From assembly GCA_022539475.1 (NCBI GenBank), contig VCMS01000108.1, positions 156,399 to 220,398 on the forward strand: 64,000 bases of DNA. The letters run 5' to 3'. Source of the stretch: Gracilaria domingensis. Its lineage: Eukaryota > Rhodophyta > Florideophyceae > Gracilariales > Gracilariaceae. Positions within the stretch are counted from its first letter, which is position 1; each line of letters opens with the position of its first letter. Below the pieces are notes generated by a model. It saw only the letters and a list, made by a program, of their open reading frames with translations, searched no databases and was not told the origin of the DNA. The position numbers were made by a program, and so were the translations under genes. Shown here piece after piece: positions 35,757 through 59,770 of this stretch.

Positions 35757-36077
35757 CTAACCAACCTTTCGAAAACCAGCTATGACATGAGCTGGGTTAC
35801 TCGAGCCAAAGATGGCAGATCCTGCAACTGAAATGTTTGCACCGGCCTTCACTACTGCTTTCACAGTACTCAGTCCAATACCTCCATCCACCTGTATCCC
35901 TATTCTTGGGTACAACTCCCTTGCATGTCGCACCTTATCAAGAACACCCTCCATAAACGCCTGTCCTCCAAACCCTGGCTCCACCGTCATCAACAATAAC
36001 ATGTCTACAACTCCTTCCTTCATAAGTGCTTCTACGACCTTTATAGACGTATTCGGGCGCAATCCAACTCCATCCTT
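35757..36077 (-). pseudogene. rpe: Ribulose-phosphate 3-epimerase, C-terminal half only
   Basis: An open minus-strand frame of 106 codons. It contains the family landmarks LLMTVEPGFGGQAFME, the phosphate-binding region IQVDGGIGLSTVKAVVKAGA and VAGSAIFGSSNPAHVI. The N-terminal half, with the metal-binding His/Asp residues of the first strands, is absent: a stop (TAA at 36078-36080) precedes KDGVGLRPNTS and no upstream frame continues the barrel. The enzyme of the Calvin and pentose-phosphate pathways needs the whole TIM barrel, so this is a fragment of a duplicate copy. The C-terminal end is natural. Confidence 0.85.
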
Positions 36078-38004: not shown

Positions 38005-38733
38005 ATGTATAACTCAGAAGTTAGAGCCCAAGAAGTAACTCCTCAGCAGCTGGCTAACGAAATATTCGAAAATGGCTACGCCGTGATTAGTGATGTTGAC
38101 GGTACTCTGAAAAGAGCTGGGGAGAACATTCCTGCCGAAACAGTCAAATGCATGAAGTACATCAACGCACGCGTTGGTTTCGGAATTGCTACTGGGCGAG
38201 ATATAGAGGATGCCGAGAGTTTCATGGAGCACCTGGGTGGCTACACTTTTGGCATCTCTGGAAACCAAGGCGCACGGGTGAGATTATCCAATGGTACCGA
38301 AATTGATCAGGACCTTGACAGGGAAGGTTACGAAAGATGTGCAGCCGAACTTGAGAGACTTGCACTCTCCTTAAATGAATCGCACGGACTTCACGAAGAG
38401 CGTCAACAAGCAGTGGTGAGCACTAGAAAAGACAGTGGACTCCCTAACTTCACGTACAATGGACTGTCGAAGTGGAAAACAGAAGTTAACTCCGGTATTT
38501 CAAAAGTGTTGACATCCTTTCCGAACCTGGTTGCGTACCCTCAAGATGAAAACTGTGACATAGGGGACATTCGTTTCACGAAAAATAGTGGGGCGCTAGC
38601 CTTGGTTGAAAACGACCCCCAGTTCGACACACATTTAATCGTTGCTTTCGGGAATGCTTCCAATGATGGTCCTCTATATGAAATGGCAACCCTCGCAGTT
38701 CATGTGAAGGGAGACGACCTCCAGCAGCGGTAA
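38005..38733 (+). CDS. HAD-superfamily phosphatase, frameshifted at its C-terminus
   Basis: From the ATG at 38005. HAD motif I is AVISDVDGTL (nucleophile Asp30 and Asp32), motif II is the Thr of GIATGRD near 62, and motif IV is the acidic pair in FGNASNDGPLYEMA near 215-225. The cap between resembles Cof/sucrose-phosphatase-type (type IIB) phosphatases acting on small phosphorylated metabolites. The frame stops at 38733 (KGDDLQQR). The +1 frame continues PAAVTYLVDGVEDVHETIRR, the expected C-terminal helix, to about 38800, so one indel near 38715-38725 has removed about 30 residues. The core may still fold. The end lies close to the assembly gap. Confidence 0.78.
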   Translation: MYNSEVRAQEVTPQQLANEIFENGYAVISDVDGTLKRAGENIPAETVKCMKYINARVGFGIATGRDIEDAESFMEHLGGYTFGISGNQGARVRLSNGTEIDQDLDREGYERCAAELERLALSLNESHGLHEERQQAVVSTRKDSGLPNFTYNGLSKWKTEVNSGISKVLTSFPNLVAYPQDENCDIGDIRFTKNSGALALVENDPQFDTHLIVAFGNASNDGPLYEMATLAVHVKGDDLQQR

Positions 38734-38889: not shown

Positions 38890-39731
38890 NNNNNNNNNNN
38901 NNNNNNNNNNNNNNNNNNNNNNNNNNNNNNNNNNNNNNNNNNNNNNNNNNNNNNNNNNNNNNNNNNNNNNNNNNNNNNNNNNNNNNNNNNNNNNNNNNNN
39001 NNNNNNNNNNNNNNNNNNNNNNNNNNNNNNNNNNNNNNNNNNNNNNNNNNNNNNNNNNNNNNNNNNNNNNNNNNNNNNNNNNNNNNNNNNNNNNNNNNNN
39101 NNNNNNNNNNNNNNNNNNNNNNNNNNNNNNNNNNNNNNNNNNNNNNNNNNNNNNNNNNNNNNNNNNNNNNNNNNNNNNNNNNNNNNNNNNNNNNNNNNNN
39201 NNNNNNNNNNNNNNNNNNNNNNNNNNNNNNNNNNNNNNNNNNNNNNNNNNNNNNNNNNNNNNNNNNNNNNNNNNNNNNNNNNNNNNNNNNNNNNNNNNNN
39301 NNNNNNNNNNNNNNNNNNNNNNNNNNNNNNNNNNNNNNNNNNNNNNNNNNNNNNNNNNNNNNNNNNNNNNNNNNNNNNNNNNNNNNNNNNNNNNNNNNNN
39401 NNNNNNNNNNNNNNNNNNNNNNNNNNNNNNNNNNNNNNNNNNNNNNNNNNNNNNNNNNNNNNNNNNNNNNNNNNNNNNNNNNNNNNNNNNNNNNNNNNNN
39501 NNNNNNNNNNNNNNNNNNNNNNNNNNNNNNNNNNNNNNNNNNNNNNNNNNNNNNNNNNNNNNNNNNNNNNNNNNNNNNNNNNNNNNNNNNNNNNNNNNNN
39601 NNNNNNNNNNNNNNNNNNNNNNNNNNNNNNNNNNNNNNNNNNNNNNNNNNNNNNNNNNNNNNNNNNNNNNNNNNNNNNNNNNNNNNNNNNNNNNNNNNNN
39701 NNNNNNNNNNNNNNNNNNNNNNNNNNNNNNN
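38890..39731. other. Assembly gap (run of N)
   Basis: 842 undetermined bases. It is flanked by two copies of a HAD gene in opposite orientations, so the gap may reflect a hard-to-assemble inverted repeat. Confidence 0.99.
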
Positions 39732-39887
39732 GAGTGTATATCCTCCAGCTTTCCGAACAGGTTGTGTTACTCCACCGGGCATACTCTATATTGTAGCGGA
39801 TAACGCCTACCTTCAAGCAAGGCCCGTCGTCAAGTCACTTCCTGAACGTCCACGTACGTCATCCGTATCAATAAATCTCCGCGTTCA

Positions 39888-40500
39888 TTATCGCACAAGA
39901 TTTGCTCCTTCCGCTTCCTTTTGTGTATCGTTGTCCACAATTTTCGCAACTTTTATCGCGGGATAGATAACAAACGCATCCATCTTTGCAACAGGTTCCC
40001 CAAGTAGCGAATTCATTTCTCTCCACTGCCACAGTTTTTGTACACGAAATTGGGAAGGCCCACTATCATTCTGGTCTCCACGACCCCTTCTCAATCATCA
40101 TTCAAGTACCATGCTCCTATTCAAATCCCTTGCCAAGAGTCAGATCCGTCACAGTGTGTCAAGCGTGTGATCATTAAATGCAGCTTAATTTCTCTCTGTC
40201 CAGGAAACGGAAGGAAGCTCCCATGATTCGCCGAGACACAAACTTATAGTCTCCGAGTCCTTCCATTTTTCCTCCACATCCCAATCACCCCTGTGACAAG
40301 TCCGAACCACCCGCTTCCGTCCACTGAACTTCATGCACTTCGACAACTTCTTCTGGAATTGACTCTCCTTCTCTTCTAAACGTTCCCTCAACGGAACTTA
40401 CTATACCGTAACCATTGGCATATATGAACTTAGACAAGGTATTAGGTGAAATTTCCGTAAAGTCTCTCTGTTCCTCTGCCATTTTTCCTGATACAGTCAC
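39888..40500 (-). pseudogene. HAD phosphatase, inverted degenerate copy
   Basis: On the minus strand, ISPNTLSKFIYANGYGIVSS, continuing VEGTFRREGESIPEE (near 40450-40360), aligns with VTPQQLANEIFENGYAVISD, continuing VDGTLKRAGENIPAE of the gene at 38005. The nucleophile motif DVDGTL reads SVEGTF, so both catalytic Asp are lost. After frameshifts GDWDVEEKWKDSE corresponds to GRDIEDAESFMEH, and WREMNSLLGEPVAKMD (near 40040) corresponds to the SKWKTEVNS region. It is a dead paralogue. Confidence 0.68.
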
Positions 40501-40844
40501 CATACTGCCACAAGTACCGCATAGACAGGAACTGCATAGACTTCTCAGTTTCATACTTCTTTTAAAAGCAAATTTAAGTGCAGTTCCAGAAGTGTTAGGA
40601 CGCTACATGTTCAATTGCGAATTGAATGGTGCCACCAATGATGTTAACGATACCGAGCATGTGTCATGTTGCAATTAGACGCAACTGGACCAAAGACGTA
40701 TGACATTTGTTCAATTACCAGCCTGCCGCACCTTTTCTATGTTCATATGTATAGCCTTGCAATAGTATACTACTCTTAATACTCGCAAGACACTCATAAT
40801 TTACTAATCATCTCATTCTCATCCACTTCGAGGCGCTCGCAGCC

Positions 40845-43800
40845 TCATATTGGCAAATCGTCATCACTACTACTCTCGAGCACTTCAGTTCTACCGGTCT
40901 CCGCTTCCACACCAATCTCCACGACCACTTGGTCTTCTTCCATGTCAACCGCCCCACCCTCCTTATCGGACAACAGTTCATCCTCCGCCTCCTCCTCCTC
41001 GTCACCATTGACAAACGTGGGTCGGAAATCCTGCACTTGATGAACAGCATTAGGTTGTGCGTAACCCTCTGGTACCATGTACATGTGGTATCTAACCAGC
41101 AAATCCATAGACTCGGGCCTATCCACCTTGTCCTTCCTACTTGCTCCAGCATGTGTCACATCACCACGGCCCACGAATACAGAGTACGGTGGGATGATTA
41201 TCTTCTTCGCCGGATACACCTCCGACATCACTCGCAACTGTTGGTTGTTCATCCCCACCAGTTGATGGCTTCCAGCGCTCACCCAGAGAGGGAAGCCCTC
41301 TTTCCCAGAGGCCATTACAAAGTATCCGGGGTTACCAGTATTCATTGTTTCCTTCCTAACCAGACCACTGAAGTCGGTGTGCAGCGTCTGGCGCTTGCAC
41401 TTTCTCGTCGTCCCCAGAAATCGACCACCAGTTCTCGGAGTGTACATCTTCACAGCTTCCCTTTCATTGTCCCATAGTCCCAAAGCCGCAGCAATTGTAC
41501 CCATTCGAACATCAAGTAAAGCACGCGACCTTACAACCCACCTGAGCTCCTCATCATCCTCCGGCTTCTCCACCGTACCCCAACGTGTCGACATCACTCT
41601 CCTCTCAAATGGTCCATCGCTACCGTCCTTCCATCCTTCATCATCGTTGATTATTTGAACAAACGACTTCTGTTCCTCCCCTTTCCGTATATCCGGCATC
41701 GCTCCATACTCATTCTCGAAGAAGTCCACCAACTTCCCCGACACATCTCCGAACTCCCGAACGTCTTCCAACTCCTCCCATTTAGGGACACCATTATCCG
41801 TCGCAAAGCCATCAAGCACGCAATATCCATTCTGCCTTAGCTCAGCTTGCATTCGGGCGAAGAACATTTGCCCAAATTCGTCATGCTCCTTCGCAGCAAC
41901 CCACAGCACCTCTTCATCATCCATACCTGTCGGCCGAGTACGAGGATACTGCATACCAAATGTCTCCGCCCGTAGGCGGTGTTCAGTCCTTGCAGCGTGC
42001 CAAAAGACAAGATGGTGTACATCTCTGAGATTCGAGACACTTAGCAGCTCCGACCTATGTGCCTTCGGCAAGTGATTGACTCTGAGCCAGGGGTCCTTGT
42101 GCTCAATTACGTTCTTCCCTTGCCATCCCTGCGGTCTCAGCCTGACATACCCGCACCATGATTGGTTCGGTGGGCCATCATATGGGTCTCTTCGAACAAG
42201 TCCGTGCTCCTCAGATTCCGGAAGAGCTGTAGGTAACTCGTCATCAAATGACCCCCCACCTGTCTCTTGCTGATCGTCTGGCGCAGCATCTTTCTCGACG
42301 GTGACAACCCGTGGAACCGTCACAGAAAGAAGCTCTTCGTCATCCACGAATGCAGAACTGCCTGCGTTCTCTGCATTCGCTCTCTCTCCCAATGCCACGA
42401 ACTGAACCTTCATCGACCTTCGTCTCAGCACATGTTTATTTAGTTGAGACATCAGGTCATCCGGTGTCATGCTGTTCAGAGTAGATCTCATCTGTTTCGT
42501 GAAAGTCTTTCTCCGTTTCTTCTTCGGCGGAGCCCACTGTTCTTCTTCAGAGCTATCCAGGACTTCTATGGCACCTCGATTTCGGCCGTACTCAATTTCC
42601 CTATAACTCACCTGCGCCCGTTCTCGTGCGCTTCTTCGCGGCTCCCCTTCTTCACTGGCAGATGCTGCAGCAGCAGCAGTGGGAGTCCTCCTCCTCGTCA
42701 CGGACTGCTTCACTGGTGCGGGGGGCGGAATTACCTTGAGCATCGTCCGCAATCGATTCTGAACGGAAGTCGTGGCAGTTCTAATTGAGTTCGTCCTGCT
42801 CCGAACACGCGGCAATGTGTTGAAGTTCACAACTTGTCCCAAAAGGAATTGATACACAACTGCGTTGTTGTCTGGGTCTTCAACATCATCTTCATTCGAT
42901 GGAGCAGAAAGACTGACTTTGCGTTTCAGGAACGCTTCCATGGACTCTTCCTCGTTCAGTTCATTCCTCACTGCTCTAGCCGCGCGGAACAGAGACACTG
43001 CTCTATCATAAAAGAAACCTCGAACCTCCTCAAAGCTTTTCCATTGCTTTGTCTTCGTCGACTTGCCCTTCAATAGAAACATCTGAAGACAATCAAGAAT
43101 GAAGGAAAACTCCTCGGCATCCAAAACATATAGCGGAGTATGGGACAGACGTGTGAGACCTATGTCACTCACACTCTCACATATATCCTCGAAATGGGCC
43201 AGCATTCCCTCACGAGACATGAGTTGCAGGGCGACATTGGCATATCTAAGATACTGACGCTCTTGCACAGTCCCAATCAGTTGGCTCTCCTTCAACACTT
43301 CTGTGACTTCTGCAGGATCCACGTCTGCCGGCGTCACCTCCTCAACATCTTCAATTAGAATGGCGACCACACTAACTATAGAGTGTATCTTGTCTCTAAA
43401 CATCATCCTTCGCATGGTACTCGTCGACTCATTGAGGTACGAAGCAACACACAACAATTCCTTCATCCCAATGGGCCTCCCATCTCTTCGTATCAGCAGA
43501 TTGCAACGCCAAAACGTAGCTAATCGCTTCCGCTTCGGTGCACCAGTCGCTGCCAAATATTGTATAGCTTTCGGACGATGCAAACCATCTACAATGAAGC
43601 ACTTCTTCGTTAGGCGTCCCTTGTCAGTATCCCTCTCTCCCGTAGTAGCATCTTGTAAGGCCACCACTGGAGAACCCATCGACTGCAATATCCCCCGCTC
43701 CTCCATACTCTTCACAAGGGCTTCAACGTGGCGTTTACTTACTCCACGGAGTAAATTGGGCGGAGTGTCCACCAGAGTGATGTCAACAGTAACAACAACC

Positions 43801-44735
43801 ATCCGGTACTGATTGAGGTTCACCTTTGGTACCTTCTGACGAATTTGTCTGTACGTCTTGCTCCGAGTGGGTGTCCCTTGTGTTCCAGACCGCTCGCCAG
43901 AAACACTTGAACGTGCCATTCTTGCGGATAGAAGCACAACGTCATCGTCCTGCTGCTCCGCAGTTTCTGGTGCAGTTTGGGGTACAGATGGACCAGCTCC
44001 TTGCGCGGATTGCGCATCCGCGTCTGGAAGGGGACCTTTTATGATCTCATCTTCCTCTTCTTGCACAGCCTTTCGGTGCTGAACCGTCTGTTTCGACGCA
44101 GAAGTTCCCCTTGTGTCGACGGTCTGATTCATCGCAGAAGATGCCCTTTTCGACGCAGTGGGCTTCGTAGCGGAGGTAGACTTTGTTTGACCTGTCTGCT
44201 TCGTAGCTGGGAATGCTCTCGTCTCCATAGACCGCTTCGTAACAGAAGACGGACCTGCCCGCGGAGGTGCTACTGATGCGCTATCTCTCGGTGTTGATGA
44301 ATTTCGAATTGGCTCCGTGCGGCTTGTCGGCGTCATCACCTCACTCATAGCGCTCACCGTTCCCCGCTTGGACGCCGGAATGCTGGCTGCCACCGGTTCC
44401 ATCATTTTCTCATCCCAAGGAGCGGCCGTCCGGAGATCCTGGATGTATTGTGGAAGATCCAGGCCCTCCGCGCGGTAAGGGTAGAACGTCTGACCGCTTC
44501 GACTGATGAGAATATTATGAACCACCACAAGATCTGGGTCCAATTGCTTCCCGTGCAGCTCGCGGCGTAGAACACATCCAATTCCATGCAACAACGCTTC
44601 CCCGACTATCACCTTTCCTTCATTCTTAATATCCATCTGCAGAGAAACCCGCATTCCACCTTGCAATGATCGAGTGCTCCGCCGAGTGCGAGGAGTCACG
44701 CTTTGCGTACGCTTTCGAACACGAGTTGGCTTCAT
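40845..44735 (-). CDS. ParB-like domain plus 2OG-Fe(II) dioxygenase, 1296 aa
   Basis: A single uninterrupted frame of 3.9 kb. The N-terminus is basic. Residues about 165-225 are a Thr/Ser/Lys-rich tandem repeat (ATKQT-type). A ParB/sulfiredoxin-like domain lies at about 315-400: SKRHVEALVKSMEERGILQS, then CFIVDGLHRPKAIQYL, matching the DGxHR box. A Ser/Arg linker carries a basic nuclear localisation stretch (PPKKKRRKTF, about 730). The C-terminal part (about 960-1225) is dioxygenase-like: LRQNGYCVLDGFATDNG, the metal-binding HxD in QTLHTDFSG (about 1118), the distal His in GRGDVTHAG (about 1190) and an Arg in LVRYHMYM (about 1214). The tail is acidic. Such enzymes oxidise DNA, RNA or protein; the substrate here is unknown. 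It diverges from the methyltransferase gene at 45675 over a mirrored promoter. Confidence 0.82.
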   Translation of the reverse strand: MKPTRVRKRTQSVTPRTRRSTRSLQGGMRVSLQMDIKNEGKVIVGEALLHGIGCVLRRELHGKQLDPDLVVVHNILISRSGQTFYPYRAEGLDLPQYIQDLRTAAPWDEKMMEPVAASIPASKRGTVSAMSEVMTPTSRTEPIRNSSTPRDSASVAPPRAGPSSVTKRSMETRAFPATKQTGQTKSTSATKPTASKRASSAMNQTVDTRGTSASKQTVQHRKAVQEEEDEIIKGPLPDADAQSAQGAGPSVPQTAPETAEQQDDDVVLLSARMARSSVSGERSGTQGTPTRSKTYRQIRQKVPKVNLNQYRMVVVTVDITLVDTPPNLLRGVSKRHVEALVKSMEERGILQSMGSPVVALQDATTGERDTDKGRLTKKCFIVDGLHRPKAIQYLAATGAPKRKRLATFWRCNLLIRRDGRPIGMKELLCVASYLNESTSTMRRMMFRDKIHSIVSVVAILIEDVEEVTPADVDPAEVTEVLKESQLIGTVQERQYLRYANVALQLMSREGMLAHFEDICESVSDIGLTRLSHTPLYVLDAEEFSFILDCLQMFLLKGKSTKTKQWKSFEEVRGFFYDRAVSLFRAARAVRNELNEEESMEAFLKRKVSLSAPSNEDDVEDPDNNAVVYQFLLGQVVNFNTLPRVRSRTNSIRTATTSVQNRLRTMLKVIPPPAPVKQSVTRRRTPTAAAAASASEEGEPRRSARERAQVSYREIEYGRNRGAIEVLDSSEEEQWAPPKKKRRKTFTKQMRSTLNSMTPDDLMSQLNKHVLRRRSMKVQFVALGERANAENAGSSAFVDDEELLSVTVPRVVTVEKDAAPDDQQETGGGSFDDELPTALPESEEHGLVRRDPYDGPPNQSWCGYVRLRPQGWQGKNVIEHKDPWLRVNHLPKAHRSELLSVSNLRDVHHLVFWHAARTEHRLRAETFGMQYPRTRPTGMDDEEVLWVAAKEHDEFGQMFFARMQAELRQNGYCVLDGFATDNGVPKWEELEDVREFGDVSGKLVDFFENEYGAMPDIRKGEEQKSFVQIINDDEGWKDGSDGPFERRVMSTRWGTVEKPEDDEELRWVVRSRALLDVRMGTIAAALGLWDNEREAVKMYTPRTGGRFLGTTRKCKRQTLHTDFSGLVRKETMNTGNPGYFVMASGKEGFPLWVSAGSHQLVGMNNQQLRVMSEVYPAKKIIIPPYSVFVGRGDVTHAGASRKDKVDRPESMDLLVRYHMYMVPEGYAQPNAVHQVQDFRPTFVNGDEEEEAEDELLSDKEGGAVDMEEDQVVVEIGVEAETGRTEVLESSSDDDLPI
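44060..44240 (-). repeat. Coding minisatellite in the ParB/dioxygenase gene
   Basis: Imperfect ~45-nt repeats encode units like ATKQTGQTKSTSATKPT and NQTVDTRGTSASKQTV. Confidence 0.65.
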
Positions 44736-44799
44736 GTTGAACAGCTATTGCAGTGAAAGGTGTATATCAACAATACGCTCGCTCTGGACGATACAAGAA

Positions 44800-44904
44800 C
44801 GGAGGCCAGCCTTTAAATGGCGACTTACGCTGGGCACCCTCGCTTTCGGCAGCTCCTCCCAGCGCACTGCCATTCTCATCCGTGTCCTGTCCGTGGCCGC
44901 TCGT
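44800..44904 (-). promoter_or_regulatory. Mirrored promoter-proximal repeat, left copy
   Basis: About 105 bp, near-identical to the inverted copy at 45560-45661. In the direction of the minus-strand gene it contains GCCGAAAGCGAGGGTGCCCA, then GCGTAAGTCGCCATTTAAAG, and ends about 65 bp before that gene's ATG at 44735. ATTTAAA is TATA-like. Confidence 0.75.
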
Positions 44905-45094
44905 ACGCTGATTGTACGCTTTAGAGTCGTGGAGTTCGCGCAATGATGACTCACGCGAGCAATGGTCGCGCTCTCTAATCATGCTCTTCAAATGCTTTGC
45001 ATAGTAGTCAAGAGTACACTCATTCACTTTCATGTACAGCCTACTCCCGCCACTACACGTGGACTGCGGGGCAAACGTACCGGCGGCCGGGTGT

Positions 45095-45424
45095 AGCGAA
45101 ATCACTGCAGGGCGACGTGTTTTGGGAGGTCCCAGGAAGGCGCCGGAATGTGGCCAGAACGTGCCCGCGGGCGGGGGGGGGGTCGGTCGTGTTAGGGTAG
45201 GTACATTAACACGACCGGACCCCCCAGCCCGCGGGCATAAAATCGCACATTTTTCAAAAAATCGCCCAAAACGTGCCCGCGGGCGGGGGGGTCCGGTCGT
45301 GTTAGGGTACCTACCCTAACACGACCGACACCCCCCGCCCGCGGGCACGTTCTGGCCGCATTCTGGCACCCTCCGGAGACCTCCCAAAACACTCCTTCCG
45401 GCACTTCCGGCAGTGATTTCGCTG
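45095..45424. mobile_element. GC-rich foldback element between the divergent genes
   Basis: Outer arms AGCGAAATCACTGC (45095) and its complement ending at 45424 continue inward through TTTTGGGAGGTC and CCAGAACGTGCCCGCGGGCG on both sides. Inside are two further hairpins (about 45168-45237 and 45278-45350), each built from CCCGCGGGCGGGGGG and GTCGGTCGTGTTAGGG with their complements. A short ATAAAATCGCACATTTTTC spacer joins them. No proteins. A decayed relative lies at 59350-59770. Confidence 0.8.
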
Positions 45425-45559
45425 TACACGCCGTGCACATATATCGAACTAGAGAAAACTAGCGCTTCACACCCACTTCATCCGCGACTTTTTGCACAAT
45501 ACGCGACCTTTGCAATAGCTCCGAATCGCGGCGTGGCCGACACGCGACGCTATTGCACC

Positions 45560-45661
45560 GAGCGGACACGGACACGGACGAGACTGGCAGTTCGGTGGGA
45601 GGAGCTGCCGAAAGCGAGGGTGCCCAGCGTAAGTCGCCATTTAAAGGCTCGCCTCCGTTGT
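45560..45661 (+). promoter_or_regulatory. Mirrored promoter-proximal repeat, right copy
   Basis: Inverted partner of 44800-44904. It reads GCCGAAAGCGAGGGTGCCCA, then GCGTAAGTCGCCATTTAAAG, and ends 13 bp before the ATG of the methyltransferase gene at 45675. It probably contains the core promoter or 5' leader shared by both genes. Confidence 0.75.
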
Positions 45662-45674
45662 TTACGCTGAAGCG

Positions 45675-48053
45675 ATGGATTCCACCGATGATGGAGAGGA
45701 GATACATCCTATCGACATGAGTGCTCCGCCTCCGGCGTTCCATGCATATGTCAGACTTTTCTTGGTTCTTCGCGATGCTTTGGCAAACAGCGATGGAGGC
45801 CCTGATCGGCCACGGGACGTGGGGTTTAGAGGGCTAATAGAGTTCTGCGCCGAGAACTATAAGGATATTCCGGAGGCAAGGAAGATGTTTGAGGAGGCCT
45901 CTAACTCCAAGAACCTGCAGAACTTGACACTGCAACAGCTGCGAAAGAGTGTTGTGAATAACAAACCTGTGGAGCAACGATATCTTGTGACGAAGCTTCT
46001 TGACAAGAAGGACGGTGATGAGGACCAGAGACTGCGCGATTTTTTCCTTCTCTCTATGGATATGGGTATATACCTACCGGTGCGATGCCTGGTTGGTTAT
46101 TTCATGACCAGGAGAAAGCAGGTTCTAAAGACGACAGTGTTCATCCCACCAACAGCTGTGAACCCATTTGAGGTCATTATATACTTATCATACCTCGACC
46201 ACATAATGGGAGAGAACGACAACATCAGAATGATGAAGAAGAAACAACCGAAAAAGAAACGAAAAGTGAACCATGCACCATCTGTGTACATACCCACTTT
46301 TGCGTCGTTCTCCAAAGACAACTGTGATCGACTGGGATTCGCTATCAGTGAGGTCGTATGGGCATGGAGTTGTTTTGCGGCTCATCTTGGATACACGAAC
46401 GTTGAGCACATGGTGAAACCATACATTTACATGAATATGCAGACGTTGAAGTATACAGCGCTAGAGACACGGGAGTATGGTTATGCCCCGCCGAGCCAGA
46501 GTACTCGATTCAACACACAGGATGTGCCACAGAGCAGTACTAGTGGATCGGTGGAGATCTTGAGTGATGAATGCGATACAAACCTGCGAATACTGGCTAA
46601 GGAGTTTTTGACAGATCTCGAAACCATATGCACCCACGATAGCCTCTATAGCTTACGGGTTGATCAGATGAGGAACTGGATAGAGTTTTCGGGGATACGG
46701 ATGGATACCGTATCTGGTTCTGACTCCGGTGAGTTGCCTGCTCGATTTCAGAAGTTTTCGGAGTTGCTATGGAAACCGATACAGGATATGCGTCATGCGG
46801 CAGGGTTCCATGTCGGCATTCAGGCGAAACCTGATATTGAACTGACGAAAACCCCTAAAACTTCCGGTAAGGCCGAACCTTCTTCGACCAAGTCTGCCCC
46901 ACCCCCACCTCGTCGAGAGTATATGAACCTCGTGAGCTCCGATAGCGACTACTTCGAGAAGCCGGTGAATCTTGCGGAGCATGAATCTCGGGTTGCCAGT
47001 TACAACTTCCAAAAGACTGGTATTGAGCCGCCCATGAAGGGGATATCCACTCTCCTTCGAATGAATATGGACAAGGTGTGGAAGGGGACGAGAAAGTCAT
47101 ACTTTGTAGCGTACAACTGTGACATGAAGGACCTGAGGCACACACACGAAACATTTGTGAATCAGAGTGAGATTTTATGGGGTGAGGCACAGCTTGTCCT
47201 AACAGACCCTCCTTTTAACACCCGAAGGAAGAGGAACAAACGGAATAGTGCTCACGATGTCTTCAGTGAGGATGACATGATCCGTACGGCTGACTTAATA
47301 AGTTCAGCGCTTCGGTCAGGTGGGCACTTCATCATATTCTGTGCCATGGTACAGTTTCATGTTTGGCACAGGATACTCTCGGAAAAGGCGAGTACGAGAG
47401 ATGACACTGGAAGCGAAGGTAAGCCAGAACTCATTCCTTCGTTTAAAGTGGATGGGAATCCACTGATGTTCATCCGGGATCGAAGTAATGTTGGAGGGAA
47501 TCCACGAAAGTTTGGGATACAGCCCGTAACGGAGTACGCCGTTCATGGGGTGAAGCGTGGATTGCGACCATCCGAGGAAGCCAGTCTTACTCCATTTGAG
47601 GAGAACAATTTCATTCCTTTTACCTTCCCGGCTAACAGGAATGTAATTGACCGGGTGCCAAAACCGAGAGCGCGGGAGTGGTTGACATGGAAGGTAAATG
47701 AACCAGGTAGTTCAGTACCAAGTGGGCAGTACATAAGACCGGAGCAGAAGTCCAGGGAGTTGATGAAGCAGTTGATATTTCGGTTCACAAGACCGAGAGA
47801 TCTTGTCATGGACATGTTCGCGGGAACTTTTTCTACGGGTATGGCGTGCCTATCGCTGACAATGCATAGGAAGTTCTTGGGGTGCGAGAAGAATAGGCCA
47901 TGTTTCAACCATGCAAAGCACCATGTAACGACTCTTATGGCCGAAGTTCTTCGCGGGGGGAAGAATGACATCGTGGTTGAACAGGAGGTGGTGGATGCTG
48001 CTTCAACGACTTACGAACGGGTTCCACATCGGGACCGAGGTCGGCTTGAATAG
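45675..48053 (+). CDS. Beta-class DNA amino-methyltransferase (DPPF type), 792 aa
   Basis: The N-terminal ~490 residues are unrecognised, apart from a nuclear localisation sequence PKKKRKV near residue 193. The methyltransferase follows with motifs in beta-class order. Motif IV is LTDPPFNTRR (about 510-515), then GGHFIIFCAMVQFHVW, then a variable region. Motif I comes late as DMFAGTFSTGMACLSL (about 713-728), with FLGCEKN after it. DPPY/F enzymes transfer methyl from S-adenosylmethionine to the exocyclic amine of adenine or cytosine, so 6mA or 4mC is expected. The AdoMet loop FAGTFSTG is intact. The frame ends in TAG (48051-48053), but the same frame stays open into the SET region 34 bp on. 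Confidence 0.85.
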   Translation: MDSTDDGEEIHPIDMSAPPPAFHAYVRLFLVLRDALANSDGGPDRPRDVGFRGLIEFCAENYKDIPEARKMFEEASNSKNLQNLTLQQLRKSVVNNKPVEQRYLVTKLLDKKDGDEDQRLRDFFLLSMDMGIYLPVRCLVGYFMTRRKQVLKTTVFIPPTAVNPFEVIIYLSYLDHIMGENDNIRMMKKKQPKKKRKVNHAPSVYIPTFASFSKDNCDRLGFAISEVVWAWSCFAAHLGYTNVEHMVKPYIYMNMQTLKYTALETREYGYAPPSQSTRFNTQDVPQSSTSGSVEILSDECDTNLRILAKEFLTDLETICTHDSLYSLRVDQMRNWIEFSGIRMDTVSGSDSGELPARFQKFSELLWKPIQDMRHAAGFHVGIQAKPDIELTKTPKTSGKAEPSSTKSAPPPPRREYMNLVSSDSDYFEKPVNLAEHESRVASYNFQKTGIEPPMKGISTLLRMNMDKVWKGTRKSYFVAYNCDMKDLRHTHETFVNQSEILWGEAQLVLTDPPFNTRRKRNKRNSAHDVFSEDDMIRTADLISSALRSGGHFIIFCAMVQFHVWHRILSEKASTRDDTGSEGKPELIPSFKVDGNPLMFIRDRSNVGGNPRKFGIQPVTEYAVHGVKRGLRPSEEASLTPFEENNFIPFTFPANRNVIDRVPKPRAREWLTWKVNEPGSSVPSGQYIRPEQKSRELMKQLIFRFTRPRDLVMDMFAGTFSTGMACLSLTMHRKFLGCEKNRPCFNHAKHHVTTLMAEVLRGGKNDIVVEQEVVDAASTTYERVPHRDRGRLE

Positions 48054-48086
48054 GAGGCTCCATTTGGATACCCCCAGTACCAAGTG

Positions 48087-48812
48087 ATGCCTGCTCATAT
48101 TACTCAGTTTCTAGGAAGATACTGGAAGGACTGGGAGTTTTTCAACAAGTGTGGAGAGCATACTGTAGATCTTTGGGACGAGAAGTACCGAGGAGCTCTG
48201 AATCTAATGGATATGCATATGCTGTTGACTGTTGAAGCCAATCGCTATCGCTTACATGTAGCATCATCTAAGATTCGACATCCCCGTGCTGGTATGGGGG
48301 TGTTCACGGAACATAAGATATTGACTGGGGAAACTATCTGTCATTTTTATGGAACTTTGGTATACACGGATCTGACGAACTGGAAGGAAAGACACTTAAC
48401 GTCTGGAAGTGACTGTCTCGGAGCAACTCCAGTGCGGTACAAGTTGTTTTCTATGATGGTCACTGTGACTGGTTCGGAGTTTCTGCACCTGAGAAACAGA
48501 CCAGGATAGGCTCAGGATAGAAAGGAGAGCGAAGTGTACATTGTCCCGGCGCCTTTTTGTATCGGGGGGTACATTAACGACGCCGGATATCATGCCGGGG
48601 ATCCCGATTTATCGCAGCCCCGGTCAAACAGGACTCGAAGTGCCAATGTGCAGATGGTGGAAGCGAAGTCCGTGATTCAGTTTAAGTCGCACCTTTCTAA
48701 CTATGCTCTACTTCGTTGTAGAGCAGTAAGAGATATTGAGAGAGGCGAAGAGTTGTATTTCAACTACGGAGAGCATTACGCCTGGGACTGGGCTCTGACA
48801 TTGGAGCAATAG
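48087..48812 (+). pseudogene. SET-domain protein, one in-frame amber codon
   Basis: In the same frame as the methyltransferase. SET landmarks are present: RAGMGVFTEHKILTGETICH (N-terminal SET strand), IVPAPFCIGGYINDAGYHAG (the NHS/INDA-like box), NYALLRCRAVRDIERGEELY and FNYGEHYAW (the GEEL-Y-YG end). SET proteins methylate lysines, usually in histones. TAG at 48507-48509 splits the domain (RNRPG, stop, AQDRKES). Together with the TAG at 48051 this suggests an ancestral methyltransferase-SET fusion interrupted by two amber codons, or translational readthrough. I mark it as a pseudogene provisionally. Confidence 0.72.
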
Positions 48813-48994
48813 ATGAGTTCAGTACCGAATAGAAAGTAAATATGCTTGTGAATGTTGCACCTGCCTGCAATACGCGTTGTTGTACATGTACACTGGAGCT
48901 CTTCATCTGTAACGGCGATATTTGCGACCCATTGGGCACCTCAAATTCCTAAAAAGCAGGAACTGCGGAGTCTCCCGAAATATCTGAACCATGC

Positions 48995-49024
48995 ACCCCC
49001 CCCCCCCCACCCCCTCCCCCCCCC
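48995..49024. repeat. Poly-C tract
   Basis: About 30 nt of C broken by one A and one T. It lies in the 250-bp spacer between the SET region and the next gene. Confidence 0.9.
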
Positions 49025-49061
49025 AACAATTTCGTTTCATTACCCCGTTTATCTCCACAAC

Positions 49062-49924
49062 ATGGGTATAACGCCGAGAAAGCGAAGTAGGACGCAGTGC
49101 AACAAGAGTGGACAGAAGAAGAGAAGAGCATCGGATGATACGAATCAGGCTACAGGCACCCCACTTCCTAAACGAAAGTCGTCCTCGACGAAGGAGAGAG
49201 TCAGTCGGCGTCCTTCTACAGTACTCTCTCGCCTATCTCGCAGCGGAGTGTCTTCCCGGATTGCGCCAAGAATTTGTGGATCAGCGAACGATGTCGTGCC
49301 GTCAACTGCCGATAATGTAAATCGTGCATCTGTCTCTGCTCCTCAAGAAGATGGGGTAACTCGGCCCAGCGGGTCAGGACAGGAGGGCATGACAACTGGA
49401 ACTGAAGAGGTTCGTATGACACCAAAACCTTCATGTCCCCGTCCGATATCGAAGACCGGAGCTATGGGGCGCGGGTTACGCCGCCCAGTGGATCTGGACA
49501 ACAAGGGACAATGACGAGAAGTCGTGAGAGCCCTAGTATATTAAGATCGTCACGTCCCTCCCTGTCTTCTAGAACGGGGGCCGCTATGAATTGTATTATG
49601 CCTCGCAATGGGTCCGGACAAGGGAGAAAGACAATAAGAAATCGAGAGACAACTGAGAGACGAGTTACTTTTCGACCTTCCCCTCTTTCCAGAACGGGGG
49701 CCGTTGCAGCTCGTACAAGGCCCAATTCATCTGATATAGGATGCCATGGAGGAGGACAGACACGGGAGTTGGAGCTCGGAGCCGTGCCAAGGGTGGACAC
49801 CGAACGCCTGCAGCCTCTCGTGTCTAAGGGCATGGCACATGAGGATAGTTCCGATAACGAAATAACACCGAAACCTGCGGCATTACCAGGGCCTGTCGCC
49901 GAAGAGGCTAGGGAAATACCGTAA
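49062..49924 (+). pseudogene. Basic, repeat-containing N-terminal portion of the coiled-coil gene, frameshifted
   Basis: The ATG at 49062 (MGITPRKRSRTQ) opens a Lys/Arg/Ser-rich frame. A shift within the G-rich stretch near 49464-49472 moves the meaningful reading to the frame that runs to TAA at 49922. Three ~40-residue tandem repeats cross the shift: PSGSGQEGMTTGTEE, PSGSGQQGTMTRSRE and NGSGQGRKTIRNRE, each followed by an SRPxLSRTGA-like element. The repeats prove that both frames belong to one protein. The stop is in frame with the next gene, 30 bp downstream. Confidence 0.6.
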
Positions 49925-49954
49925 GATATCCACACTGGTGTGAATTCAACCTCT

Positions 49955-51457
49955 ATGAACAGACGTGATCTTTTAAATGAACTGAATTGCTTGAAAGAAA
50001 AGGTTAAGACGCTACAAGAGGACTTGATGGTTCGGGGTATTCTAGTGAAGGTCGCCGAAGAGCAGAGTACGGCTTTGAAAAAGAGGCTTGAAGAGAAGGA
50101 TCTAGTCATTGAAGGGCTAAGGGGGGCACTGAAACAGGAGGGAGATAGGAGTACACGTGCTGGTGAACCTGGGCAGACAGGTCGAAAGAAGCATAAAATT
50201 GAGGTGTGCGACGAGTTTCGAGGGGTTGCTCGAGCAGTGTATCACAACAAGCTGACGTGGGCAAGGAGAGAAACAAGTGAGCTATGGCTCGATGGTGAGT
50301 CGCTCACCCGAAATTGGGGAAACCGTGCCGAGAAGGTGGAAGACGCAACTGAGAGTGGGGAAGGGCTTATTGAGCCGGAGGAAGGTGGTTCATACATGGT
50401 TCCTAAAAACCCCGTGGAGCTCTTCGGCAGTTTTGGCATGTTCACACCGTCGGTAAAGGGGGTGCCAGATGCTTTGCTGAAGAAAATGGTTGAAAGCGAG
50501 TTGAAGAAGTTGAGCTGGGAAGGTATTAGAAAAGCATCTCTTACCGACACGTGTATACTGGAACTTTGTGCAGATATGTGCCTTAGGCAGAGAATGCGGC
50601 AGACCATGAGTGACTTCGTGGGCGTTCGGAAGAGAAATACGAGGGATAAACTATTTATGCTCCTGGGGTCCGATCTGATTTGGAGAAGAACAAAGCTGGT
50701 AGAAGAGAATTCTGACGAACTCACAATGCAGTTGAAGGAAGCGCAGGAGAACATACTGCGTCTTGACGAAAATGGTGTACCGAACACTTCATGGTGGAGA
50801 AAAGCCCCATTTGTTCGTCTAAAGTACTCCAATGCGAACAATGTCGAGGATATGCCGACGGAAGATCAAGACTTGTTCTTCCGAAACCGTGTCGGGGTAC
50901 AAGTACTGAAGGACTTTATTGGGTATGATGTGGAAGACAAGGATACGGGCACCTTTTTATATTGGACAATACTGTTGCTCGCACGTTTGGACGCTTGGGT
51001 GTTGACGGTTGTGAGCCTTCTAAGTACGGATGTGTCAAGGCGTGGCCAGAGACAGAAACTGTTTACAAAGAAGTTTGCCCAACTGCTAACTCTGTGTTTA
51101 AAGAATGTTCTGGGGGATGTTAGGCAATGTGTCTCGAGGACCAATTCCAGCGAGTTTCATAATTTTGGAACGACAACAGAAGATTGGACTAATGTTCTTG
51201 GTAATGACATGAGAGAGGCTACATTTGGATATCGAATGCCGTCGAACGGAAGACTTTACCTCACTGTGAAAGAACAATTTTTTATTGACAGTGTGAGCCG
51301 AAGATTGGGGTCTATTAGCGATTGTTTCGTTGGTGAATGCGAGGAAGGGGATATGGAGTTCAAGGAAATGGACATGAACGATTTCGAAAGTAGCACAGGA
51401 TCACAAGAAAAGGCACCACAAGGTGAACATGTAGAGGATGGAGCCCTTAATGTTTAA
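49955..51457 (+). CDS. Coiled-coil protein of the element, 500 aa, unknown
   Basis: ATG at 49955 (MNRRDLLNELNCLKEKVKTL). Residues 1-60 form a coiled coil with Leu and Lys heptads, then a basic patch (GRKKHKIEV). The rest is mixed alpha-helical, with a BEN- or BTB-free core I cannot assign (WWRKAPFVRLKYSNANNV, then YWTILLLARLDAWVLTVVSL). The tail is acidic. It is in the same frame as the repeat-rich segment upstream, separated only by TAA at 49922-49924. It may be a structural or DNA-binding protein of the element. It overlaps the 3' end of the convergent ORF by 4 bp. Confidence 0.6.
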   Translation: MNRRDLLNELNCLKEKVKTLQEDLMVRGILVKVAEEQSTALKKRLEEKDLVIEGLRGALKQEGDRSTRAGEPGQTGRKKHKIEVCDEFRGVARAVYHNKLTWARRETSELWLDGESLTRNWGNRAEKVEDATESGEGLIEPEEGGSYMVPKNPVELFGSFGMFTPSVKGVPDALLKKMVESELKKLSWEGIRKASLTDTCILELCADMCLRQRMRQTMSDFVGVRKRNTRDKLFMLLGSDLIWRRTKLVEENSDELTMQLKEAQENILRLDENGVPNTSWWRKAPFVRLKYSNANNVEDMPTEDQDLFFRNRVGVQVLKDFIGYDVEDKDTGTFLYWTILLLARLDAWVLTVVSLLSTDVSRRGQRQKLFTKKFAQLLTLCLKNVLGDVRQCVSRTNSSEFHNFGTTTEDWTNVLGNDMREATFGYRMPSNGRLYLTVKEQFFIDSVSRRLGSISDCFVGECEEGDMEFKEMDMNDFESSTGSQEKAPQGEHVEDGALNV

Positions 51458-52340
51458 GGCTGTACAAGATCAACGTGCTCAGTTGGTCCTTCATCTGAAT
51501 CATGATAGAATCGATTGATGTAGAATCGGTGTTGAAACCATTGAAGTGGAGGACAAAAAGGTGGAGCAAGGTAGTTTGATCGAACAACATGGACAGTTCC
51601 CTGTAGTGCAGAAACCGGAACCATCCCGTACCAAGGAGTTAACTCTACCATAGTCTCCGCTTTGGAATGACGAGGGAGCGGAAGAATGTGATTCTTTTCA
51701 TCGTTTGTAGCCCACTGTAAAGATATGCATTTCAATATGTGGTCGATGTTTGTTGGGGGGGGTAAAACCTCGAAATACCGGACGAATGCACCCCTCTGGT
51801 GCCGTAAGTGCAGAATCAATGAGAGATATTCGAATCAGAGCGACTACCTGGGCAACCCAAGTCTCTGAATCTTCTCCGCTTACCAATACAGTGGAAAACT
51901 TTGGCTTTCTACTAGGACCAAATGCTGGGGAAGCGAAGAATCGTTGGATGATGGGGTATTTGGGTCGTCCCAGCTTAAGTGCCTTAGAAGACGAATCGAA
52001 GTGTTCAAGAGTCGGAACGAAACCGCCTTTCACGAGGGCCGAATTCACCAGAGTTATCCTTGTCTTTTCTGGGAAGTATGTAATAGAGTGCTCATCCAGT
52101 GTTTCTTTCACGAGACTGAGGAAAGGAGGAAGGGCCTGTTCACCAATTTGGTCAAGAATCGACCTTGTGTCCCTACTTGAGAACATCTCTCTAACAGCAG
52201 TCCATGTTTTTGACCTTGAAATACTTGAAACACAATGTTGAAGAGCTCGTAAAGTGAAAGAACGCCCTCTCGTTGCAAATCGAGGGAGCTGTGTGGAAGT
52301 TCCTGGTAAACCTGGATTACGCTGGTAAGGAGTATTGCCA
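51454..52340 (-). pseudogene. Transposase-like protein C-terminal part, frameshifted and truncated
   Basis: Two minus-strand frames join at a run of Gs (about 51756-51762). The upstream part includes GEQALPPFLSLVKETLDEHS and VKGGFVPTLEHFDSSSKALK. The downstream part has ILKCISLQWATNDEKNHILP, VPVSALQGTVHVVRSNYLAP and a final QWFQHRFYINRFYHDSDEG. This late layout (a beta-rich module, then L/I-x-G-x-V-H-V, then FYxNxF/Y) resembles the C-termini of large KDZ/Plavaka-type cut-and-paste transposases, but no catalytic motif is visible. The 5' part is lost at the junction with dispersed repeat copy C at 52341. Confidence 0.42.
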
Positions 52341-53265
52341 CGTCTGTGTTTTGCAAAGTGGAATATAGTCTGTTCGCTTTGGAAACTAAGCTAGTTTTTG
52401 GGCTATTTGGGGCGCGCGAGGGGGTGGCAGAGGCTGGCACTCAAAAAATTAAGAAATTTTGGAATATTAAATTCCATATGGCGCAGTTTAATTCTTGGGT
52501 CCCCTAGTTTTTGTAGAGGTTCTACTTCGCCGCACCACCCCATTCACTCTTTTCCGCGACCGTCTCTCAAAACTGCACTCGTGCTAGTTTGCGTTTCCAT
52601 TTTCCTCTGAGTTGCGATAAAAATCACAACTCATCCCACCTCAATCATCCCAACGTTCCTTCCCATCCAAACCGCAATCACTATTTACTCATTTTTCGCC
52701 GATCCTGCGTTCGGATCCTTCCTCTCCGTCTCCCCAAAAGCTTTTCTGTAGAAGTACGGGTAGCAACCCTCCCCAATCCCATACACCCGCGTCGCCCAAA
52801 AACAGCTTCCCATTCCTCCCCATCCTTCTCTCCTTATGCGCCGCCAGATTTCGTTCGGCCGTTCGCAGTGCCATGCCCCACGTTAAAACCCAGTCAAGAC
52901 CGGAGCCCCGATTGCCTCCTATGGCACCTCTTTCATCACCATCCTCTTCTCCTTACGCCTCTTCGTCAGACGGCTCTTCCGGTGCCCGAACCTACCAGCC
53001 TTCGCCTTCGGTGTCAAAAAGGACTCCTTCTGTGCTGCAAACCTTCCCATACTTCCCATCTCTGTCCTTCCTTCTACATCCGATTTCAACATCCTTTCCT
53101 CCACCAACCCTTGTCTTGTGCAGAACACTTTCACCGCCTTCTCCATCAGGTCTATCACGTTTCTAAGGACCATAAGCTTCTCTTGCAACTCATCTAGGCC
53201 TCCTGGCGCACATTATAGTACACCATACACATTTTATCTCATCTCCATCTCTTAAACGAACAAAA
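52341..53265 (-). repeat. Dispersed repeat, copy C (about 925 bp, short form)
   Basis: Begins CGTCTGTGTTTTGCAAAGTG, like copies A and B, and ends at the same internal point as copy A (CATCTCCATCTCTTAAACG region). It encodes a broken minus-strand tail with LTPKAKAGRFGHRKSRL. It abuts the truncated ORF on its left and the NLE1 relic on its right. Confidence 0.88.
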
Positions 53266-54420
53266 AACTGCGCAGGATTAATATCTTCTCAAACCACTCG
53301 GTAAACGGCCGCAACATGTCCGCGGAACGTGAAGCAAAACTTGCCAGCTTGCCATCCCAAAGTCTTACATTCTTGTCAAAACTGGCCGACGCGATATACC
53401 GCCCATCCGGACTGAACGCCCTGCATTTGACCAGCTGCTGATGGCCGGTCATGCGCGAAATGGGCTGTATGCCCTAGGTGCGTTTCCAAACGTCTTCCCA
53501 CAGCATCAAAGTGAAATTATCGGACCCACTCATCATAAGTTCCCTCCCGCCCGTACTTTGCCGTTTCACCTTTTCATAGCGCTCCAACGCCTCTTCTCGC
53601 GACCACTTGACCGGCATGTATCCGTTCTGCTCGTCCAGAGATGCAAACGCACCGCACTTGAGCACGTAGTCGGTGAAAAGCGTGATGGAATTCACCCAGT
53701 GAGCATGTGCATTTATAGTCGACAAAGATAAGCCATTATCAGCATTCTAGATCTTTATACTACGATCCTGAGAAGCAGAATAGATAAAACCGTCTCCACT
53801 CCATACGGCAGTCGTGACTGCAGCTCTATGTCGCGCGAGCATCCTGACCGCGCTCATGCTAGCCACGTTCCAAATCTTCAGCGTAGCATCCTTCGAAGCA
53901 GACACCACCAAACAACATCGTTCATCCAAATGATACGGCTTCAAACCCAAATCCGTGACCCATTTGCGATGGGAAGCCAAGCTCTCACCAGTTCCTTTCT
54001 CAACGTCTCAGATCCATACCCGACCGTCCTTCGAAGCAGAATCCAATCGACTCCCCTCTGTAGAAAATGCCAACGCCAGCACTCAATCGCGATGACCGAC
54101 TAAGGAAAGCTTCGGCAACTGCGCCTCCGCATTCCACAATCTGACGGTTGTATGGCCAGAACCCGTCGCTGGCAAGCGACAATCCGGCGAGAAACACGCC
54201 GTCGGCGCCATCCGACTGCATCGCGCGCCGCCCAACTCGTCGAAGAAGACCGCGCAGCACAGGACGCGGTATGAAAGACTCTCACCGACGACGCCGCCGT
54301 GCACGTGGCACGTGACGCGTGTATTCGCGCAGGCATACACAGCGGTAGCGGCCCCAGCCTGTGGCCCACTTGGCACGGAGGCGAGTCGCGACGCCTCCTC
54401 CAGCTGAATATTGGCAATGA
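53266..54420 (-). pseudogene. NLE1: NLE1/Notchless (Rsa4) WD40 pseudogene
   Basis: On the minus strand from 54420, the propeller of the ribosome-assembly factor NLE1 is readable: TGSGHTTVRLWNAEAQ, then ESLASHRKWVTDLGLKP, then KDATLKIWNV, then INAHAHWVNSITLFTDYVLK, then [20 protein letters not shown] and [11 protein letters not shown]. Four stops lie in the one frame that spans 54376-53350: TGA at 54083 and 54008, TAG at 53747 and 53474. A frameshift after RLWDG leads into [13 protein letters not shown] and a fifth stop (TGA at 53289). The remaining blades are replaced by repeat copy C. At least four stops sit where Trp is expected. Confidence 0.88.
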
Positions 54421-54438
54421 TCGCAGCTGCCGATTCAG

Positions 54439-55254
54439 ATGCTGATCTCCGCAGTCCGCCAACATCTGCCGACGCCGCGCCGCTGTCGCGCGCCGCGTCG
54501 CACCCTCACGGTGTGCGCGCGGCCGTCCGCCATGAGGGCGACGTGCTTCCTCTCGCCGCTTCCGTCGTTTCAGACCGGCCGTTTCCACGCCGCCACGCAC
54601 GCTCTCCATCGCATCGCGCTCATTCCCCGCCGCCCCGCAAGCCGCGCCTGCCTGCAGCGCGGCGCGAAGCGCGCGCTCATGCTGCCGGTGCTCGCTGACG
54701 CGTCGTGCGACGCGCAGCTCACGCTGGCGATCGTCGGCGCCGTCACGCTTTGGCTGGGCGTCTGGCAACGGGTAACAGCGCTTGGGCTGGTTTTCTCGCG
54801 CACGACGAGGAAGATCATCCAAATCAGTTGCGGGCCGGCTTTCCTTGTGTTGTGGCCGTTGTATAGCGCGACCACCGACCCGCGTCTGTGTGCCGCCTGC
54901 GTGCCGCTGTTGTTCCCCGCTGTGCCTGTAGTGTCAGGCTTTTTGTCTGCCGCCTCCGCGCGAAGCGCGTTGGCGTGCGCGTTGTCGAGAGAGGGAAGCG
55001 CGCGTGAGGCTCTACACGAACCGCTGATCTACAATGTGACGCTGCTGCTGCTCACGTTCTTTCTGTTCCGCACGCCGGCCGCAGCGGTTTGCTTCACCCA
55101 GCAAATGTACCTTGCCTCAATGGAAGGAGCCGTACTTAGCGGAAAGCTAACAGTAACTGAGATAGTTTCAAATATAGACGTGCTGGTTGAACGAAGGAAG
55201 TCAAAGTCCTTGGAAGCACCCCCAGTCAGTCCCGCTGTATACTGTGCTCGGTAA
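54439..55254 (+). pseudogene. Phytol-kinase-like (VTE5/FOLK family) gene, 3' half missing
   Basis: ATG at 54439, then a Ser/Arg/Pro-rich leader that could be a plastid transit peptide. From about residue 100 come membrane segments and the family motif RKIIQISCGPAFLVLWPLYS, then VPLLFPAVPVVSG, then REGSAREALHEPLIYNVTLL and LTFFLFRTPAAAV, as in phytol and farnesol kinases that salvage phytol for tocopherol synthesis. The family continues with GDGIAD-type nucleotide-binding helices. Here the sequence departs after RTPAAAV into unrelated codons and stops at 55254. The first half is undamaged, so truncation is the main defect. It is head to head with the NLE1 relic. Confidence 0.75.
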
Positions 55255-55333
55255 ACCAACTTTTGCAAGCAGAAAAAAGCTTTACTCTTTGCCGGCCCTT
55301 TGCCCGTTGACTAGCGTTAACTTTCGAAACACT

Positions 55334-59349: not shown

Positions 59350-59770
59350 TTCGGTGACGGCTACTTCAGAATGTGGCGAAGACGTGCCCCGGAGCCAGGT
59401 GGGGCGGGTCGGTCGTGTAGGGTAGGTACCCCTAACACGGAACGGACCCCCGCCGCGGGATAAAATCGCACATTTTATCAAAAAATACGGGCCAAACCGT
59501 GCCGCGGGCGGGGGGGTCGGCTTTAGGGTAGCTACCCTCTAGACACACCGGACCCCCCCAACCCGCTCGGCAATTAAAAAGCACATTTTTTAAAAAACCA
59601 GCCAAAACGTTGCCCGGAACGGGGGGTCCGGCGCTGCTCTTAGGTAGCCACCCTAACACAACCAACCTTCCCCCCCCCCCCCCGCGGCCGCGGCATCTTC
59701 TGGCGCTACGTTTAGGCACGAGCCAGACCTCCCAAAAAACCTCTCGACACACTTCCCGCACTCTATTACG
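59350..59770. mobile_element. Decayed second copy of the GC-rich foldback element
   Basis: GAATGTGGCGAAGACGTGCC (59370) parallels GAATGTGGCCAGAACGTGCC at 45150. TCGGTCGTGTAGGGTAGGTA, GGATAAAATCGCACATTTTA and the closing AGACCTCCCAAAAAACC correspond to units of 45095-45424. Here three hairpin units are present instead of two, and the stems are eroded by indels and substitutions. Confidence 0.78.

Follow-up and report, generated by a model that had tools for sequence, protein, structure and literature searches.

Candidate remnant of a decaying multi-gene transposon with DNA- and chromatin-modifying cargo in Gracilaria domingensis

In a stretch of 64,000 nucleotides (nt) from contig VCMS01000108.1 of Gracilaria domingensis, in the following called the window, we analyzed a block of about 11.5 kb (positions 40845-52340). 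On balance, this block is probably the remnant of one copy of a large multi-gene algal DNA transposon, which carries epigenetic cargo and is decaying. We favor this reading because of the encoded domains, the two long intact frames with matched arms between them, the transposon-rich surroundings and the printed precedents from algae. The surroundings contain a Harbinger-type transposase, a gene of the DUF6818 family and a nested foldback element. An initial annotation had interpreted the block as a mobile element with epigenetic cargo; its observations as a whole were partly confirmed, and the interpretation found partial support. The block contains the following genes, domains and arms:

40845..44735, minus strand: ParB/dioxygenase gene, intact, 1296 amino acids (aa) from the first ATG (open frame; PHROG 3264 ParB-like, E 0.0018)
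43539..43826, minus strand: putative ParB/sulfiredoxin-like core, residues 307-402 of the stop-to-stop frame, VEALVKSMEERGILQ ... FIVDGLHRPKAIQYL (PHROG matches)
41079..41831, minus strand: possible 2-oxoglutarate (2OG)-Fe(II) dioxygenase domain with PhyH-like motif order (motif pattern, no profile match)
44795..44887, minus strand: promoter-like arm containing TTTAAA, in front of the ParB/dioxygenase gene (94% inverted match to 45570-45662)
45570..45662, plus strand: promoter-like arm containing TTTAAA, in front of the methyltransferase gene (inverted match to 44795-44887)
45675..48053, plus strand: predicted beta-class DNA amino-methyltransferase, intact, 792 aa (PF01555, PHROG 67, PDB, motif order)
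48087..48812, plus strand: SET domain in the frame of the methyltransferase, with one internal TAG at 48507 (PF00856; frame and stops)
49062..51457, plus strand: coiled-coil gene, broken into pieces that add up to about 800 aa (translations)

The divergent gene pair, the methyltransferase and the SET domain

Only two frames of the block are intact, the ParB/dioxygenase gene and the methyltransferase gene, which are divergent from each other. From stop to stop they cover 40845-44744 on the minus strand (1299 aa) and 45645-48053 on the plus strand (802 aa, with the ATG at 45675). Both are far longer than the longest open frames obtained when the block was shuffled 100 times by a first-order Markov model (mean 173 aa, maximum 251 aa). 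The earlier statement that these two genes are intact is confirmed. They are fronted by two inverted arms of 93 nt which match by 94%. A core of 33 nt, including the TTTAAA, is identical in both arms, while 0 such cores were expected by chance (100 shuffles). The mirrored promoter proposed in the initial annotation is thus borne out as a sequence feature. We infer from the position of the arms that they may act as promoters; alternatively, they might be the terminal inverted repeats (TIRs) of an inserted element.

The product of the plus-strand gene is firmly predicted to be a beta-class DNA amino-methyltransferase, as had been claimed. It matches PF01555 (N6_N4_Mtase) with an E value of 4.8e-15 and PHROG 67 with 8.8e-22. 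The matches in the PDB are DpnA (E 6.6e-8), CcrM (3.9e-6) and MboIIA (0.00035). The motif DPPF at residue 521 is followed by the S-adenosylmethionine motif DMFAGT at residue 723 (numbering of the stop-to-stop frame), which is the order of the beta class. Motif order and domain family are shared with the bacterial and phage adenine methyltransferases DpnA, CcrM and MboIIA. In contrast to these, to which it is about 26-31% identical, the protein of the window has a long N-terminal part of about 470 aa to which no domain is assigned. In this class of methyltransferases DPPF favors adenine as the target. Because of this motif, N6 of adenine is more likely to be the target than N4 of cytosine.

Relatives of the methyltransferase were sought in prokaryotic and viral collections, a scope which closer eukaryotic relatives would escape. 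As query we used an alignment of the methyltransferase from the window with three phage methyltransferases. In prokaryote genomes 93 relatives were found among 401 pattern matches, and 80 of them were kept. Viral contigs yielded at least 38 among at least 600 pattern matches. The best full-length matches, from bacteria and phages, are about 26-29% identical, and shorter segments reach up to 46%. By its sequence, the methyltransferase is of the prokaryotic (phage/bacterial) type. No relative was detected on plasmids at E ≤ 0.001. A simple ParB pattern was absent from the frames matching the methyltransferase (118 blastp rows, frames of at least 150 aa, loci L001-L121).

Downstream, the SET domain reads in the same frame. 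With the internal TAG read as X, the full PF00856 profile is matched (positions 1-105 of 105, E 1.5e-7), and the second half alone still matches with an E value of 0.0005. Weak PDB matches were obtained to EZH2 and MLL1-type proteins (E 0.11 and 0.18; second half alone 0.0084). Read across the TAG, the assignment as SET domain, which the initial annotation had also made, is firm at the level of sequence, and the gene is interrupted as it stands. Between 45675 and 48812, the common frame of methyltransferase and SET domain holds only 3 stops in 1046 codons, all of them TAG (48051, 48507 and 48810), compared with 63 and 62 stops in 1045 codons in the other two forward frames. Methyltransferase and SET domain may once have been one protein, or one protein may be made by read-through of the stops; if they count as one, the gene count of the block may change. 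A shared frame of neighbours has a one-in-three chance in any case.

The coiled-coil gene follows on the same strand, so that methyltransferase, SET and coiled-coil parts all point in the plus direction. The coiled-coil protein of the initial annotation is present as a gene, whose frame is disrupted twice, by a frameshift (inferred near 49465) and by a stop at 49922. For its last piece of 510 aa, neither Pfam nor NCBIfam gave a match at E ≤ 1. A PHROG integrase match (E 0.014) falls on the coiled coil of this piece.

The ParB-like and dioxygenase-like regions

The protein of the minus-strand gene can be divided into an N-terminal tail, a ParB-like domain, a middle region, a C-terminal dioxygenase-like region and an acidic tail. 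The match of the whole protein to PHROG 3264 improves to an E value of 0.00066 if only residues 300-480 are used. These residues also match PHROG 4715 (E 0.039) and PHROG 1033 (E 0.14), and the three make up the top of five PHROG families listed for them, all three annotated as 'ParB-like partition protein'. The layout of ParB is visible between the two ends of the core given above, including VDGLHR, a motif of the DGxHR type. Alignment with hhalign to 19 bacterial ParB frames gave the expected register at a weak score (E 0.051, probability 1%). These matches weakly suggest a ParB identity of the core.

In the C-terminal region, motifs of a dioxygenase occur in order: GYCVLDGF, H1122-T-D1124 (HTDF), GSH1160, GDVTH1198 (GDVTHAGA) and VRYH1220 (VRYHMY), in stop-to-stop numbering. 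We take this order to be that of the phytanoyl-CoA-type (PhyH) dioxygenases. When the protein was shuffled 20000 times, the core pattern (HxD/E, GSH, G[DSE]..H) arose in 12 of the shuffles, and one of 607 background frames of at least 200 aa contains it. This one frame is located in L125, a locus which bears a PhyH gene. A stricter pattern including the GY motif was found in none of the 20000 shuffles and in none of the 607 frames; a pattern lacking GSH turned up in 59 shuffles but in none of the frames. All these patterns were composed after the protein had been inspected. Among six loci with PhyH genes, five fail the core pattern and none matches the stricter or the GSH-less one. The counts are support, not proof, for a possible dioxygenase, which, if present, would be PhyH-like by its motif order. 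Of the fusion of a ParB-like domain and a 2OG dioxygenase that had been proposed, the ParB part is weakly matched by PHROG 3264 and the dioxygenase part is seen as a motif order, with no profile match.

A TET/JBP dioxygenase was also considered. It was rejected because no Pfam family was matched, neither by the whole protein (E ≤ 1) nor by its C-terminal piece (E ≤ 10). The TET/JBP-type cargo for which fungal elements had been named as precedent is thus unsupported in the block. No relatives of the ParB/dioxygenase gene were detected in the phage, viral and prokaryotic collections. A single match of the ParB piece to a phage protein (E 5) falls within a DNA polymerase.

Related elements and a possible function

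Several known elements resemble the block. In Ectocarpus, giant elements of the KDZ, EnSpm and Sola-1 types were reported, in which most families contain nested transposable elements and the transposase is frequently pseudogenised (PMC12477816). One of them, Sola1-1_Ec32, carries a ParB-like domain and an N4/N6 DNA methyltransferase as cargo on the strand opposite to the transposase (PMC12477816). There, both are part of one protein of 1104 aa. In the block, in contrast, the ParB-like domain is joined to the dioxygenase-like region, and the methyltransferase is separate, divergent and in frame with the SET domain. Such cargo elements have precedents in green and red as well as brown algae (PMC12477816). 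For Bostrychia, a red alga, giant EnSpm elements with several accessory genes are cited (Petroll et al. 2025, cited in PMC12477816), and for the red alga Chondrus crispus EnSpm families of 16-20 kb with 4-5 open reading frames (Kojima et al. 2013, cited in PMC6431247). Judged by the descriptions in the citing papers, these are similar to the block in the several accessory genes, the large size and the probable host group. Unlike them, the block yielded no EnSpm ends and no transposase core.

Among fungal DNA transposons, TET/JBP genes were described from 11 lineages (Kyakuja, Dileera, Zisupton, Plavaka and others), and these elements share with the block the principle of a dioxygenase gene as transposon cargo (PMC12730594). 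According to that paper, additional modification enzymes, for example a glycosyltransferase, are not encoded by these elements (PMC12730594). The block differs from them by the missing TET/JBP match, the PhyH-like motif order, the fusion to a ParB-like domain and the adjoining methyltransferase and SET parts. SET genes are named in the introduction of the same paper for HarbingerS and MuDR elements of Phytophthora, which likewise represent SET genes on DNA transposons but differ in host group and companion genes (PMC12730594). The combination of a ParB-dioxygenase gene beside a methyltransferase with a SET domain was not found in the open-licence literature searched, and may be described for the EnSpm elements of Bostrychia. 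A transposon with DNA-modifying cargo is a kind already known in algae, while the variant with ParB on a dioxygenase and SET in frame may be new relative to that literature, where it was unmatched.

If the block is a transposon remnant, its transposase gene would be located on the minus strand at the right side, cut by a later repeat, and the cargo genes would face away from a shared divergent promoter. By analogy, the methyltransferase would methylate an exocyclic amino group of DNA and so write a mark. The ParB-like domain could guide the dioxygenase to the DNA of the element, where the substrate of the oxidation would be a methylated base or a protein. Histones or other proteins might have been methylated by the SET part, which was perhaps formerly fused to the methyltransferase. 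Jointly, the enzymes would set the chromatin state of the element itself and help it to evade silencing by the host. This scheme presumes that the parts belong to one element, and it presumes the transposase, the dioxygenase, the substrates, the self-targeting and the benefit to the element. That the element writes and erases its own mark is a reasonable hypothesis by analogy. Rather doubtful is the fullest version, a transposon family with a complete self-marking kit, in which a prokaryotic-type writer (perhaps once fused to SET) and an element-guided ParB-2OG eraser would be co-expressed from the mirrored promoters to write and edit a private DNA mark and shape the chromatin of the element itself. 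With transposons that encode DNA-modifying enzymes, one can ask whether a mobile element governs the epigenetic marks on its own DNA. If the ParB-dioxygenase and the neighbouring separate methyltransferase are what they seem, a single element would appear to pair a writer with an eraser. They would also be candidate enzymes for adding and removing N6-methyladenine or N4-methylcytosine in an algal lineage.

Edges of the block, competing explanations and surroundings

At the right side, the block ends with a relic which is cut by a repeat, and between the arms of the gene pair a further element is inserted:

51457..52336, minus strand: antisense relic, two overlapping frames, cut at 52340 (frames; no profile match)
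52341..53250, no strand assigned: local repeat copy, truncating the relic and bounding the block on the right; where the copy itself ends was set by eye (self-similarity)
45088..45430, no strand assigned: foldback hairpin similar to a miniature inverted-repeat transposable element, between the arms, 343 nt, near-perfect (DNA fold z -22.8 against 100 shuffles)

The C-terminal end of the relic presumably resembles the tails of transposases such as those of Plavaka and EnSpm, a likeness which has no library support. Because the relic has no profile match, 'transposase-like' is used here for a resemblance only. The transposase-like relic of the initial annotation is present as a truncated antisense relic, and its identity as a transposase is not backed by a profile. 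No transposase family was matched by the proteins of the block in Pfam, PHROG and NCBIfam; membership in the KDZ, Plavaka or EnSpm transposons, the first of which the initial annotation had named as a precedent, is unsupported. If there is a transposase core, it would lie beyond the cut at 52340.

The first 300 nt of the repeat at 52341 are 89% identical to 32830-33129, later pieces 74-75%, and positions 33756-34055 represent a further copy of the repeat at 32830-33129. Three copies are distributed across 32830-35222 and 52341-53250, one of which is longer and contains a minus-strand frame of 342 aa with no Pfam match at E ≤ 0.01. In the left flank, a run of N (38890-39731, an assembly gap) hides part of the sequence. 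Repeats inside each flank gave nothing decisive. Pieces of a decayed relative of the foldback element, 72-86% alike, are found at about 59360-59760, 14 kb away. No RNA families or tRNAs were found among those searched for.

Several results weigh against a single transposon with these enzymes. Nothing directly ties the two intact genes and the relics to one element. Neither frame of the relic matched Pfam, PHROG or NCBIfam. An exact 11-mer search of 39732-40860 against 51457-56000 gave one match and no TIR pair, and the window shows neither TIRs nor a target duplication nor another copy of the block. The ParB-like domain has no match in Pfam or NCBIfam, and with a home-made profile of the 19 bacterial ParB frames (hmmsearch) 4 of 400 shuffles outscored it. 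The dioxygenase region is also without a match in Pfam (E cut-off ≤ 10 for the C-terminal piece) or NCBIfam. Its best matches are not meaningful, namely a PHROG of unknown function (E 0.22) and an unrelated nucleocapsid in the PDB (E 0.95). A looser pattern, HxD..H..R, occurred in 1547 of 20000 shuffles and is no rarer than chance. At least 12 shuffles outscored the region with a home-made PhyH profile, a result of little weight as the set of six loci is flawed (L123 is apparently represented by a wrong frame, and for L125 there were two candidates). Single-sequence structure models of both regions failed: the ParB-like core reached a predicted local distance difference test (pLDDT) score of 38, a low confidence, and the model of the dioxygenase region was useless (pLDDT 29); neither entered fold searches.

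As one alternative, unrelated insertions and host-derived relics could have come to lie side by side. In that case the two intact genes would form a single element or be a pair of host genes, with separate origins for the three relics (SET, coiled-coil and antisense). The area is full of nested repeats, and the SET and coiled-coil parts are broken while the other two genes are intact, both in line with such a patchwork. However, methyltransferase, SET and coiled-coil parts are co-directional, and the first two share the nearly stop-free frame described above, though with the chance already mentioned. We consider this patchwork unlikely.

Large algal DNA viruses often encode methyltransferases, SET proteins and dioxygenases, so an endogenous fragment of such a virus or of a virus-like element was also considered. 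The phage/bacterial type of the methyltransferase, the long intronless frames and the compact divergent layout would fit. On the other hand, four query sequences from the window, namely the ParB/dioxygenase protein, the methyltransferase, the coiled-coil piece and one relic frame (51701-52336, which had no phage match either), had no relative in 2.9 million viral contigs, a scan that reaches close relatives only. Furthermore, no viral hallmark was found among the proteins and pieces of the window scanned against Pfam (10, 8 and 10 in three scans). We consider a viral origin quite improbable. Still less probable is that the divergent pair are domesticated host genes, kept as the alga's own DNA-modification system amid transposon debris: they are the only intact frames of the block and their third-position G+C (0.52 and 0.54) is close to that of the COP9 gene (0.57), but the pair is tightly associated with broken, mobile-element-like sequence, and the algal precedents for such genes lie in transposons (PMC12477816). 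The decaying transposon remains the reading we favor.

Elsewhere in the window, the proteins of the block had no further copy, in a comparison for which one coiled-coil piece was read in the wrong frame. The initial annotation had described the surrounding coding sequence as mostly broken. This holds for the right side, where a HECT ubiquitin-ligase fragment (PF00632, E 5.2e-20) and ankyrin repeats lie in decaying frames at 55693-58100 on the minus strand. Just past the edge repeat, a WD40-like relic was recognised by eye (53250-54400, minus strand), two pieces of which have no Pfam match. It does not hold for the left side, where the frames of COP9, of a HAD hydrolase and of a 300-aa protein are open. 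The COP9 signalosome subunit 1 is encoded in a single open frame (6785-8137; best PDB match E 8.5e-88). The HAD hydrolase is a frame of 242 aa at 38005-38733 on the plus strand (PF08282, E 3.2e-13). The intact 300-aa frame (36478-37374, plus strand) is reductase-like by eye, with no Pfam match. Next to it, a fragment of a ribulose-phosphate 3-epimerase is located at 35760-36077 on the minus strand (PF00834, E 1.1e-25). The Harbinger-type transposase is found at 13260-14186 (PF04827, E 2.7e-45) and the DUF6818 gene at 16346-17230 (E 8.3e-15). The eukaryotic genes of the window lie in single open frames and apparently lack introns.

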